Virus record (IMG/VR): IMGVR_UViG_3300017991_000452
Location: 1 to 20,410 of that record
DNA length: 20,410 nt
DNA from: a virus
Direction: 5' to 3' (one strand)
Positions within the stretch are counted from its first letter, which is position 1, and each line of letters opens with the position of its first letter. This document shows positions 6,543 to 17,090 of the stretch, piece by piece. A program made the position numbers and the translations under genes. The notes beneath the pieces are model-generated. The model did not search any database. It worked only from the letters and a program-made list of their open reading frames with translations, and was not told the origin of the DNA.

Positions 6543-6699
6543 GAAAAAAATGCGAAATCACGCCCCACGGCGTGATCGCCGGGAGACGGGCGCCCCGGCC
6601 TGATGAGCATGCCCGTGTGTTTCATTGTTTTCCTCCTCATCCCGTCGCCGGATGGGCCGGTGGCGGGAGAGAACATTAAAATATTTACATGACGGACAT

Positions 6700-7955: not shown

Positions 7956-8043
7956 GTAGGGGCAGACCTGTGTGTCTGCCCTGTTGGGGCGAATGATTAT
8001 TCGCCCGTACAATTTATGGGCGGACACACAGGTCCGCCCCTAC
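7956..8043 (-). repeat. 88-bp three-hairpin composite element, inverted copy
   Basis: It consists of a GCAGAC/GTCTGC hairpin, linker TGTT, a central GCGAAT/ATTCGC hairpin ending GTAC, linker AATTTAT and a GCGGAC/GTCCGC hairpin, flanked by GTAGGGG and CCCCTAC. Its reverse complement matches the elements at 10062 and 11480 in length, order and both linkers. Exact shared architecture argues for one discrete dispersed element rather than independent hairpins. Confidence 0.9.
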
Positions 8044-13620: not shown

Positions 13621-15135
13621 ATGGCTGAAGAGACCAAAGAATCAACAAAAAAACCGATCACAAACGAGATTGCCACCACGGAAAAAGACATTGATATCTT
13701 TTCCGGCTGGCTGACACGCCTGGAAAATCCCGACCCGATCGTACTGGCTGAAGCCGGCGGCGCCGGCCTGAAATTGTATGACGACGTGGACCGTGACGGC
13801 CATGCGGGGTCTGTTTTGGAAACCCGGTACCTGGCCGTGGCCGGGTGCGACCGGGAAATCACGCCGGCAGATGATTCGGCCCGGTCTGTTGAAATTGCGG
13901 ATTTTGTGGACAATGCCTTAAAGCACATGAACTTCACCCAGTCGGTGTTTGAGCTGATGCAGGCCCTTTTGTACGGGTTTTATGTGTCCGAGGTCATATG
14001 GACATCGAAAAACGGGGCATGGCTGCCGGAAAAGCTGATCAGCAAGCATCCGCGCCGGTTTGCTTTTTCCACGGACCGGGAGCTGCGGCTGCTGACACCT
14101 TCGAACATGATTGACGGCGAACCCGTACCGGACAAAAAATTCATCCTTTTCACGTTCGGATCATCCGACAATCCCTACGGCAAGGGACTGGGGCAGAAGC
14201 TCTGGTGGCCGGTGTGGTTTAAAAAACACGGCATCAAATACTGGATGATCTTTCTGGAAAAATTCGGCATGCCCACGGGCGTGGGAAAGTATCCGCCGGG
14301 AACGTCAAAGGAGGATCAGGAAAAGCTCTTAGACGCCATTGACGCCATACAGAATGAAACCGGCATCACCGTTCCGGACAATATGATTATCGAACTGCTG
14401 GAGGCCACGCGACAGGGAAAAGTGACCTATGAAACCCTGTGCGAGTACATGGACAAAATCATCTCCAAGGCGGTGCTGGGCCAGGTCGCATCCACGGAAG
14501 GGACCCCCGGCAAACTCGGCAATGAAGACTCCCAGGAGGAAGTGCGCCAGGACCGGAAAAAAGCCGACGCGGACCTGATCGCCGAGGTGTACAACGCGAC
14601 GCTCATCCGCTGGATTGTGGATTACAATTTTTCAGGCGTCACACAGTACCCCAACTTCTGGCTTCGCACCGATCCGGAGTCGGACCTGAAGGCCCTGGCC
14701 GAACGCGATGAAATCCTGGTCAACAAAATCGGGCTGAAAGTCGGCCGTCAATACTTTTACGACACTTACGGTATTCCCGAACCCGAAGAAGGGGAGGAAA
14801 CCCTGGGCCGTGGATCTGCCCCGGACAAAAATCCGGACGCTATAGAAAGAAAAGAAAACAAAGAATTTGCGGAAAAATCAAAAAACAAAACATTTACGCC
14901 CGACCAGCAGGCGCTTGAGGATCTGATCGATGATGTATTAAAAGAGGCCGGGCCGCATTCCGATAAAATTGCAAATGCCGTCAAGGACGCCATCGACAAG
15001 GCAGAATCCTACGAGGACCTGCATATTTTGCTGGCCGAGGCCATGGGCGATACGGATGCATCAAAAAAACTCGATGAGCTGTTATCAACAGCCATGATGG
15101 CCGCAGATATGTGGGGGCGGTATGCCGCAAGTTAA
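13621..15135 (+). CDS. Portal protein (Mu gp29-like, DUF935)
   Basis: This 504-residue protein matches DUF935, the Mu-type portal that forms the dodecameric vertex for DNA entry and exit. Recognisable parts are GSVLETRYLAVAGCDREI, the helical FTQSVFELMQALLYGFYVSEVIW, GKGLGQKLWWPVWFKKHG followed by WMIFLEKFGMPTGVGKYPPG, and ITVPDNMIIELLEATRQGKVTYE. EVRQDRKKADADLIAEVYNATLIRW then leads into the C-terminal part. The length is close to Mu gp29 (about 510). Its ATG follows the terminase stop with no gap, so translation is coupled. A charged, Lys/Glu-rich linker (about 415-440) precedes the last helical part. Confidence 0.93.
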   Translation: MAEETKESTKKPITNEIATTEKDIDIFSGWLTRLENPDPIVLAEAGGAGLKLYDDVDRDGHAGSVLETRYLAVAGCDREITPADDSARSVEIADFVDNALKHMNFTQSVFELMQALLYGFYVSEVIWTSKNGAWLPEKLISKHPRRFAFSTDRELRLLTPSNMIDGEPVPDKKFILFTFGSSDNPYGKGLGQKLWWPVWFKKHGIKYWMIFLEKFGMPTGVGKYPPGTSKEDQEKLLDAIDAIQNETGITVPDNMIIELLEATRQGKVTYETLCEYMDKIISKAVLGQVASTEGTPGKLGNEDSQEEVRQDRKKADADLIAEVYNATLIRWIVDYNFSGVTQYPNFWLRTDPESDLKALAERDEILVNKIGLKVGRQYFYDTYGIPEPEEGEETLGRGSAPDKNPDAIERKENKEFAEKSKNKTFTPDQQALEDLIDDVLKEAGPHSDKIANAVKDAIDKAESYEDLHILLAEAMGDTDASKKLDELLSTAMMAADMWGRYAAS

Positions 15136-16402
15136 ACTCAAAAACCTGCCCATGAAAGAGGCCCAGGTCTTCTGGCAAGACAAGGTGCCCATGGCCCGTC
15201 CTGATTTTGATGAGCTGGCAGAGCAGATGCAGGCCAAAGGATTTTATGTGAGCGGGCTCCACCGTCTTGATCAGGTCAGCCAGGTGCAGAACGCCATCCA
15301 TGAAGCCGTTGCCGACGGCACCACGTTTCAAACATTTAAAAAGCGGATCGCCGATATTATCGACCAGCAGAACTGGAGCGGGGTGCGCCTGGAGATCATC
15401 TTCCGCACCAATCTGCAAAGCGCTTACATGTCCGGCCGGTATGCGCAGATGCAAAAAGTTACGAAAAACCGGCCGTACTGGATGTATGACGCGATCAACG
15501 ATTCCCGGACCCGTCCGGCCCATCGGGAAATGGACGGAAAAATTTTTCGCTATGACCACCCGATCTGGAACACCTGGTACCCGCCCAACGGCTACCGGTG
15601 CCGGTGCGGTGTTACCACGTTGTCGGAAAGTGAAATGAAACGCGACGGCCTGAAACTGGAAACCAATGATCCCACGGGCAAATTGTTTGAGCCGGTTGAC
15701 CTGAAAACAGGCAATAAGATGCCGGCCCGGCCGTTAATGCCGGATAACGGTTTTTCAGGAAACCAGGGCAGAGAGTGGCTGTCCGGTTTGTCGCCCACGG
15801 AACTGGCGGACAAAATAGAAGACCTGCCCATGCCGGCGATCTGCAAAAACGGGCGCGGCATGTTTGCCGATGCCGTGTGCAAACCGCCCCTGGCGGATAT
15901 CGATTCCCGGCATGTGCTGCCGGTGTCAAAATCGGACATTCTTTTGCCCGGAAAAAAACCGGAAACTTACGTGCGGGCTTTTTTAAAGGAATTCGGGGTG
16001 GACGATATCAACGGCGGCGTAATCCATCGACTGCCGTGCAACATTGCCGTGCCCGTGGATAAGGGTTTTTTTATCGATAAGAAAACCGGGAAGTGGAAAG
16101 TGGCGCAAGCCGGCCGGGCACCATATATGCGCTTACTCGCGCGCACGATCTTGAACCCGTATGAAATCTGGCAGGTCCCTGCCAGGGTTGCCGGACGACC
16201 TATGCCGGTACTCCGGCTGATCCGATTGTTTTCAACACCGGGAAAGAAAATCGGCGGATTCGCCGTATGGAACCTGGTGGGCGGAAGAAAATGGCAGGCG
16301 GCCACAACGTTTACCCCAAAGGTAGGATCAAAAACGGAAAAAGCCGTGATTGAATACCTGGAAAAGCAGCGAAAGGGCGTTTTACTGTTTCGTGAAAAAT
16401 AA
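15122..16402 (+). CDS. gpF-like head morphogenesis protein fused to a PBECR2-type nuclease domain
   Basis: This 426-residue protein has two parts. Residues about 20-180 form the SPP1 gp7/Mu gpF head morphogenesis domain, with RTNLQSAYMSGRY, the D-S-R-T-R-P-A-H motif, and PPNGYRCRCGVTTLS (CRC at about 160-162). A short linker follows. From about residue 265 the C-terminus matches the phage-borne PBECR2 fold, in the Barnase-EndoU-colicin E5/D-RelE-like superfamily: PYMRLLARTILNPYEIWQVP, LRLIRLFSTPGKKIGG and EYLEKQRKGVLLFR. Such fusions are known in Mu-like minor head proteins and are thought to be delivered with the DNA. The frame overlaps the portal gene by 14 bases. Its final codons lie in the T-tract of a minus-strand terminator. 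Confidence 0.85.
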   Translation: MPQVKLKNLPMKEAQVFWQDKVPMARPDFDELAEQMQAKGFYVSGLHRLDQVSQVQNAIHEAVADGTTFQTFKKRIADIIDQQNWSGVRLEIIFRTNLQSAYMSGRYAQMQKVTKNRPYWMYDAINDSRTRPAHREMDGKIFRYDHPIWNTWYPPNGYRCRCGVTTLSESEMKRDGLKLETNDPTGKLFEPVDLKTGNKMPARPLMPDNGFSGNQGREWLSGLSPTELADKIEDLPMPAICKNGRGMFADAVCKPPLADIDSRHVLPVSKSDILLPGKKPETYVRAFLKEFGVDDINGGVIHRLPCNIAVPVDKGFFIDKKTGKWKVAQAGRAPYMRLLARTILNPYEIWQVPARVAGRPMPVLRLIRLFSTPGKKIGGFAVWNLVGGRKWQAATTFTPKVGSKTEKAVIEYLEKQRKGVLLFREK

Positions 16403-16431
16403 AAAAGCCCAGCCGTTACCGGCGTCTGGGC
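16401..16431 (-). terminator. Intrinsic terminator on the minus strand with GUAA-capped stem
   Basis: Read on the minus strand, GCCCA (16431-16427) pairs with UGGGC (16411-16407) and GCCG (16423-16420) with CGGC (16415-16412). A 3-base bulge (GAC) lies between the two helices and the loop is GUAA, a GNRA tetraloop. Six U residues follow (16406-16401). On the + strand the T-tract is absent, so it acts only on leftward transcripts. Confidence 0.8.
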
Positions 16432-16477
16432 ACACGGGCCGCCTTTATTATCCCCCGGAAGGGTCCGGCGATCCGAT
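16401..16477 (-). ncRNA. Candidate small RNA gene antisense to the late head operon
   Basis: A transcript from the minus-strand promoter would begin near 16477 and end at the terminator U-tract, giving about 77 nt. It contains a 5-prime hairpin CCGGA-CCCU-UCCGG (16468-16455), an unpaired purine-rich middle (GGGGGAUAAUAAAGGCGG) and the GUAA-capped terminator hairpin. There is no ATG in the transcript. It lies between the gpF-like and gpG-like genes, and its 3-prime end overlaps the last codons of the gpF-like gene. It could regulate in trans, act on the overlapping mRNA, or have a role in the virion. No known RNA family is recognised. Promoter and terminator are seen directly; expression is inferred. 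Confidence 0.6.
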
Positions 16478-16483
16478 GAAAAA

Positions 16484-16511
16484 ATAATATCATATTTAGG
16501 AGCTTTGTCAA
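16484..16511 (-). promoter_or_regulatory. Strong sigma70-like promoter on the minus strand
   Basis: TTGACA at 16511-16506 (all six consensus bases) and TATTAT at 16489-16484 (five of six) are separated by 16 bp. The spacer is AT-rich in a GC-rich region. The -35 box overlaps the GTG start region of the gpG-like gene. The promoter points leftwards, against all neighbouring genes. Confidence 0.7.
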
Positions 16512-17090
16512 GTGTCAGGCGTGACCGTCAATATCGATATTCAGGACAAAGAAATTCATGCCCTGCTGAAACAGATAGCGGCCCGCATCTCGGATATAAC
16601 GCCGGCAATGGAAGAAATCGGCGAAATCGTCCGTGCGTCGGTGGTGCGAAACTTCCGTGCCGGGGGCCGGCCGGGCAAATGGAAAAAATCCAGCCGGGCC
16701 AAATCCGACAGCGGCCAGACGCTTCTGGATTCCGGCCGGCTGAGAAATTCGTTTTCCGTAGCACACGGACACCCGGAAGGATATGCAAAAGTTTCCAAAG
16801 ACGAAGTGGCCGTCGGCACCAATGTGGTATATGCGGCCGTCCACCATTTTGGTGCGGAAAAAGGCGAATTCGGCACAAAGGCCGTAAATGTAAAGACGCA
16901 TAAACGAACCATTGAAAAGGCATTCGGCAGGGTCCTGGAATCACCAAAGACTATTGATGTAAAGGGCCACACCCGTCAGCAGCAATTACCCTGGGGAGAC
17001 ATCCCGGACCGGCCGTTTTTGATGATCCAGGCCGAGGACTGGACGGAAATTATGACCATGCTGGGGAAATATCTGGAAAACGGATCGTAG
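16512..17090 (+). CDS. gpG-like virion morphogenesis protein
   Basis: This 192-residue protein fits the phage virion morphogenesis family of Mu gpG: MSGVTVNIDIQDKEIHALLKQ at the start, then EEIGEIVRASVVRNFRAGGRPGKWKKS, LLDSGRLRNSFSVAHG, VAVGTNVVYAAVHHFGAEKG and the C-terminal IPDRPFLMIQAEDW. Such proteins act in head completion or head-tail joining. The start is GTG at 16512 with AGGAG at 16498-16502; both overlap the minus-strand promoter. Codons 138-158 (VLESPKTIDVKGHTRQQQLPW) seem to be an inserted loop, as in many members. The final TAG is part of a hairpin repeat. Confidence 0.88.
   Translation: MSGVTVNIDIQDKEIHALLKQIAARISDITPAMEEIGEIVRASVVRNFRAGGRPGKWKKSSRAKSDSGQTLLDSGRLRNSFSVAHGHPEGYAKVSKDEVAVGTNVVYAAVHHFGAEKGEFGTKAVNVKTHKRTIEKAFGRVLESPKTIDVKGHTRQQQLPWGDIPDRPFLMIQAEDWTEIMTMLGKYLENGS

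Follow-up and report, generated by a model that had tools for sequence, protein, structure and literature searches.

The question raised by this locus is whether a promoter and a terminator that face a late head operon, in the short space between two structural genes, delimit an RNA gene in its own right and, if they do, what such an RNA would be for. The window, by which we mean the whole stretch of DNA that was analysed, is the entire 20,410-base virus record IMGVR_UViG_3300017991_000452; it is apparently part of a phage genome, with genes that match Mu-like families (transposition, terminase, portal, head and neck). The gpF gene ends with a stop codon at 16400-16402, and the gap of 109 nt between gpF and gpG, with its flanks, presents the following features.

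15122..16402, plus strand: gpF/MuF minor head protein (Phage_Mu_F, 99.6 bits, over the cut-off)
15977..16393, plus strand: PBECR2 nuclease-like domain at the C-terminus of gpF (75.1 bits, cut-off 27.1)
16401..16406, minus strand: terminator U tract, six U
16401..16477, minus strand: small RNA of about 77 nt, its start placed from the -10 box and its end from the U tract
16484..16489, minus strand: extended -10 box TGA-TATTAT (5/6), with a 16-nt spacer to the -35 box
16506..16511, minus strand: -35 box TTGACA (6/6), immediately before the gpG start codon; TTGACT or TTGACA in relatives, at the same place
16512..17090, plus strand: gpG (Phage_tail_S, 63.4 bits), start codon GTG at 16512

A preliminary description of this DNA had proposed an RNA gene here, with a promoter at 16511-16484, about 77 nt of transcript and an intrinsic terminator with six U, and all these elements are present. 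The minus-strand sigma-70 promoter scores 11/12, which makes it the best site of the window and the sole one there with at least 11/12, and exactly one such promoter has a terminator in the next 160 nt. After dinucleotide shuffling of the window (n=150), each shuffle contained on average 0.11 promoters of at least 11/12, and the pair of promoter and terminator within 160 nt appeared in 0/150. The ends of the gene had also been placed correctly, as the -35 box abuts the gpG GTG and the 3' end extends to the gpF stop codon, and the transcript indeed contains no ATG. A GTG frame after AAAGG near 16434 comprises 17 codons and runs through the terminator; its occurrence is probably due to chance. 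The minimum free energy of the RNA, -30.5 versus -29.3 for shuffled sequence (z -0.33), indicates a stability no better than that of the shuffles, and therefore the proof has to be comparative.

According to Pfam, gpF of the window carries Phage_Mu_F and then PBECR2 in one protein, and no other domains, which is the layout of the MuF-PBECR2 effectors. In the accessible part of the paper by Iyer et al. (2017, PMC5512222), the MuF-PBECR class, situated at the C-terminal end of a Mu-F-like head protein, is predicted to act as an injected RNase; the same text calls Mu's own PBECR domain inactive and suggests RNA binding for that inactive domain. In Mu, the F and G genes overlap and the gap for an antisense RNA is absent. 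Our model of the PBECR2 domain is confident (pLDDT 85.5, pTM 0.81). Among its best neighbours in the comparison with solved structures is 3ao9, which we take to be colicin E5, a sequence-specific ribonuclease domain (Z 4.2, 84/86 residues aligned, tied with WGR domains); together, 3ao9, CDI toxin complexes and HigB1 fall at Z 2.9-4.2, tied with unrelated folds. Foldseek with the domain model gave no significant match, a PDB sequence search gave none, no match to PBECR2 was obtained in plasmids, and gpG as a single-sequence query returned no matches.

A scan with the portal protein yielded 80 contigs. In many of these relatives the gpF-gpG gap measures about 80-140 nt and contains an antisense TTGACT...TATAAT near the gpG start together with a structured RNA, while others are without the unit; what differs between them is the C-terminus of gpF, since it is the PBECR2 loci that carry the RNA. 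The sample was widened by scans with PBECR2 alignments, by bacterial genomes and by named phages. In two further scans, in the bacterial genomes (of which loci L290-L296 were inspected in part) and in the phages RcapMu, RcWaterboi, RR1-B and EBPR siphovirus 4, an RNA unit of this kind could be recognised by inspection behind nearly all PBECR2 genes. We regarded a promoter as significant when it was antisense, scored better than 95% of shuffles and lay within 150 nt of the gpF stop codon. After removal of redundancy, it was found at 40/58 PBECR2-positive versus 6/68 PBECR2-negative MuF genes (Fisher p=8.5e-13). In the PBECR2-positive loci, antisense promoter scores exceed the sense ones (p=1e-12), and the median RNA start lies 75 nt from the gpF stop codon. 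The threshold was missed by 18 of the 58 loci, several of which match the RNA models (e.g. L028, L074, L108 and L159), and one high-scoring control, L169, turned out to be a PBECR2 missed by the profile (Pfam 54.5 bits). Two further high-scoring controls, L082 and L064, bear other C-terminal extensions of gpF.

Exceptions were encountered as well. In P. aeruginosa phage H71, PBECR2 is present and gpF and gpG abut; in L117, L118, L247 and L251 the RNA is missing by inspection after a PBECR2 gene. At its place L117 (4007-4381, minus strand) and L251 (3004-3444, minus strand) have a convergent ORF encoding a protein of the Lambda_ea8_5 family, which was considered as a possible immunity protein.

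Antisense units of similar appearance were also observed after MuF proteins with C-termini other than PBECR2 (L044, L082, L078 and L064; sub-threshold PBECR1 or unassigned). The PBECR1 matches of L082 and L044, which are sub-threshold only, suggest that the RNA link may extend to other nuclease tails. In phages with a short gpF and no PBECR2 (L002-L012, L032, L038, L039 and L047), a gap of about 90-116 nt is often kept, with a conserved AT-rich GTTTAAAC...GTTTAAATTTTTCTGT motif. These gaps, mostly of similar size, were considered as the same element and rejected; the sigma-70 promoter is absent, the GTTTAAAC motif is a different one, and the element is another.

Judged from their sequences, the RNAs of the relatives are two-hairpin transcripts with covarying stems and with apical loops that are mutually complementary and change together, i.e. 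a predicted kissing loop. Family A (21 seeds) has a stem P1, a small apical P2 and a 3' stem P3. In its model-fitted alignment A5, two-sided changes affect 15/17 pairs, and the covariation score is 0.465 versus 0.217 for shuffled (0/500) and at most 0.163 for slid alignments; the B' family scores 0.203 versus 0.084, all such counts being biased towards the fitted structure and related sequences being able to beat shuffles. The test of the kissing loops is independent of these counts. From the minimum-energy fold of each of 91 non-redundant RNAs we took the final two hairpin loops, and the mean loop-loop energy was -6.38 kcal/mol for own partners versus -4.22 (sd 0.22) for swapped ones (0/10,000 permutations) and -4.64 (sd 0.21) for composition shuffles. 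Family A alone gave -8.9 versus -7.3, and the PBECR2-negative controls exhibited no effect (-1.69 versus -1.74). The opposite-strand reading of the same DNA also gives the effect, as expected from complementarity. Loop pairs of family A include GGCUCAC/GUGAGCC, GACCCAC/GUGGGUC and GGUCAC/GUGACC; others, picked by eye, are GCUGGC/GCCAGC (L116), UCCGAG/CUCGGA (L263) and GGUGA/UCACC (RcapMu). The reading of the locus as an RNA gene thus has strong support from many relatives, in position and promoter as well as in covariation and kissing loops. Conservation and covariation of the stems, on which the preliminary description had staked that reading, were found in relatives with the flanking genes conserved.

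In the RNA of the window, comparison with these relatives gives the following fold.

16467..16475, minus strand: P1 helix of hairpin 1, 5' strand, pairing with 16435-16443; layout as in L228
16453..16463, minus strand: apical hairpin of hairpin 1, CCCU-UCC-GGGG, in which CCGG at 16455-16458 is the proposed kissing partner, weak in the window
16444..16452, minus strand: purine-rich strand GAUAAUAAA, counterpart of GAUAAGUA (L228) and GAUCGGUA (L101) in alignment A8
16435..16443, minus strand: P1 helix of hairpin 1, 3' strand, pairing with 16467-16475
16407..16431, minus strand: hairpin 2, GCCCAG...CUGGGC with loop GCCGGUAA, proposed kissing loop and terminator stem in one; loop letters identical in L245

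Instead of only the 5' hairpin described earlier at 16468-16455, the comparative fold has the longer P1 helix (16475-16467/16443-16435) enclosing a small hairpin at 16463-16453. In place of the GNRA-type cap ascribed to the terminator, GCCGGUAA is best read as a kissing loop; the relative L245 has the same letters there. A kissing pair CCGG/CCGG is possible in the window RNA but weak, ranking 34 of 91 by energy. The nearest kin of the window PBECR2 (about 45-62% identity) carry RNAs of families B and B', the fold of the window RNA resembles that of L228, and alignment A8 reveals a shared layout, namely P1, (G)ACCC/loop/GGGGGAU, purine-rich strand, P1' and hairpin 2. A covariance model, R2, built from nine B' RNAs with the window left out, gave a single match in the 20-kb window, of full length, at 16404-16477 on the minus strand, and weak (12.7 bits, E=0.51). 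This may be taken as support rather than proof, since only one gap on one strand was in question. The family A model, R1, gave no match to the window. The placement is that of the family, with an antisense promoter and an RNA just past the PBECR2 stop codon. We place the RNA of the window, as a divergent member recognised mainly by context, in an undescribed family of small-RNA genes that accompany the PBECR2 domain of the virion protein gpF.

Similarity searches with the gap DNA in phages returned only 22-base chance matches in Lactococcus phages, and the exact terminator sequence of the window RNA is absent from viral contigs. Rfam 15, at gathering and at permissive thresholds, gave nothing credible at the window RNA or at the RNAs of its relatives; other matches fell elsewhere in the sequences. 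One of these, in the early region of the phage, is a Hammerhead_II ribozyme at 6550-6616 of the window, plus strand (39.7 bits, cut-off 37). The window also contains a 15-mer hairpin, TGCCCTGTTGGGGCG, with flank AATGATTATT, three times and in both orientations (7977-7991, plus; 10128-10114, minus; 11546-11532, minus).

Copies in tandem and copies on their own were found as well. Two different RNAs follow one PBECR2 gene in L108/L224/L226, L228 and L245. A search of about 390 genomes with R1 gave 11 matches, 2 of them next to MuF-PBECR2; R1, R2 and order-level searches together gave 22 distinct genomic matches, of which 12 are solitary; the others, about 10, have PBECR2, a fragment of it or what may be a phage remnant as their neighbour. 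Four of the 12 solitary copies lie in or at CRISPR arrays that are type I-E-like by repeat sequence alone. In genome G016 (L199/L205) the RNA is located inside a single 65-repeat array, between two repeats, in spacer position; in G209 (L194/L206) a solitary RNA lies just beyond a 93-repeat array; G279 (L297-L300) has two solitary RNAs, of which the first lies about 430 nt beyond a 146-repeat array and the second immediately behind a pair of degenerate repeats. As arrays with 1-kb margins cover, by our estimate, about 0.2-0.4% of these genomes, chance placement is unlikely, and capture of the RNA by hosts is suggested. Other solitary copies were found near tRNA-Arg (L207, L211) and between ompA/pal-like and ompH-like genes (L213), the genes being named by eye.

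What would such an RNA do? We lean, with slightly better than even confidence, towards a partner of the PBECR2 nuclease, which is predicted to be injected, and most likely its antidote. This reading is favored because the RNA tracks the domain, does not depend on the late operon for its promoter, is compact with predicted kissing hairpins and occurs in tandem and orphan copies like immunity genes; its position, antisense to and downstream of its partner, speaks against it, being unlike that of known type III antitoxins. The linkage by itself fits antidote, substrate, decoy or cargo alike. The RNA could be a substrate, cofactor or cargo of PBECR2, either carried by gpF into the virion or acting as a decoy that mimics the target of the nuclease, for example tRNA. 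The PBECR2 linkage and the fold agree with this too, RNA binding was suggested for the inactive Mu domain in the accessible text of Iyer et al. (PMC5512222), and a sequence-specific ribonuclease domain (3ao9, 84/86 residues, Z only 4.2) is among the structural neighbours. However, a cargo hardly explains solitary chromosomal copies without gpF, and with the RNAs no match to tRNA or to another family of Rfam was obtained; we consider this explanation rather unlikely. The virion or packaging RNA that had been put forward earlier is disfavored in its packaging form because most MuF phages without PBECR2 lack the RNA.

It was also suggested previously that the RNA controls the adjacent nuclease-domain gene. 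Of the three roles proposed then, this came nearest; the evidence, however, favors a partnership with the nuclease domain itself over antisense control of its mRNA, since the RNA tracks PBECR2, hardly overlaps the mRNAs, has a fold of its own and occurs as solitary genes elsewhere. A cis-acting antisense RNA, or a transcriptional roadblock tuning late gpF or gpG expression, would suit the antisense placement within the late operon and the promoter touching the gpG start. Yet the overlap is limited to the last bases of gpF, compensatory change keeps stems and loop-loop pairs, solitary copies lie outside any late operon, and the RNA is absent from most MuF phages without PBECR2, so that we give this explanation little credence. 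Action in trans on the host during lysogeny, the remaining earlier proposal, is possible. The reading as a regulatory RNA directed at the host or at CRISPR (an RNA moron, possibly an RNA anti-CRISPR) that travels with PBECR2 by chance might draw on the type I-E-like arrays that contain or adjoin 4/12 solitary copies and on the B' apical hairpin (CCC-loop-GGGGAU), which by eye loosely resembles the I-E repeat hairpin. Family A, however, is found in arrays too and has no repeat-like hairpin, no repeat identity was seen, and nothing else that was examined is linked to the RNA nearly as tightly as PBECR2; we regard this reading as improbable. Finally, promoter and terminator in the window might have arisen by chance, the RNA being real in the relatives only, as the fold no better than shuffles and the weak match of the covariance model would allow. 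The rarity of the pair in the shuffles (0/150), and a location, strand and layout as expected in a PBECR2 phage, make this very improbable.

If the RNA is an antidote, its sigma-70 promoter, directed against the late operon, could supply it both in the lysogen and throughout the late phase. The transcript would fold into two hairpins whose apical loops pair, and this compact RNA would bind the PBECR2 domain and hold it inactive in the producing cell. gpF would be packaged without the RNA, or would lose it, and on entering the next cell together with the DNA would be an active RNase, against which lysogens and bacteria keeping a solitary copy would be protected. More tentatively, and with odds that we put clearly below even, one may envisage a widespread family of RNA antidotes against nucleases that virions inject; bacteria would have captured them as solitary immunity genes, in some cases inside CRISPR arrays, and an RNA arms race would thus run between phage-injected RNases and RNA protection, perhaps CRISPR-linked, in the host.

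Among open-licence papers, we found none on such an RNA and one naming PBECR2 (PMC5512222), in the accessible part of which no RNA is reported. The window protein shares with the MuF-PBECR polyvalent effectors presented there (Iyer et al. 2017) the PBECR class and the prediction of an injected RNase; the RNA gene is a new element, no RNA partner being reported in the same part of that text. As far as the available portion of the respective report shows, phage-encoded AbiF of C. difficile (PMC12373285) is likewise a phage-borne protein controlled by a small RNA, but it is a different protein and not a virion protein, and homology between the RNAs was not found (no Rfam match). How the producing cell survives MuF PBECR domains, and what these domains target, are questions on both of which the conserved RNA gives a handle, and the undescribed family extends across many Mu-like phages, including the cultured phage RcapMu.

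In type III toxin-antitoxin systems (ToxIN, CptIN, TenpIN), a small knotted RNA encoded beside an endoribonuclease holds the enzyme inactive, and divergence is fast. The locus studied here is similar in having a small RNA next to a nuclease and in its fast divergence, inhibition being a proposal by analogy. It differs in that the RNA lies downstream and antisense, usually as one unit or as two in tandem, whereas the type III RNA lies upstream, on the same strand and as a run of repeats; moreover, the nuclease is of the predicted BECR class, not of the ToxN fold, and is fused to a virion protein. No ToxN, CptN or TenpN family was detected in gpF, whose Pfam matches are limited to Phage_Mu_F and PBECR2. 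Systems of polymorphic toxins and orphan immunity genes combine a toxin tip, an adjacent protector, and tandem and orphan copies of the latter elsewhere. By analogy, the PBECR2 loci would have the same organization, with a toxin tip, an adjacent presumed protector, and tandem and orphan copies, except that the presumed protector is an RNA here and a protein there.
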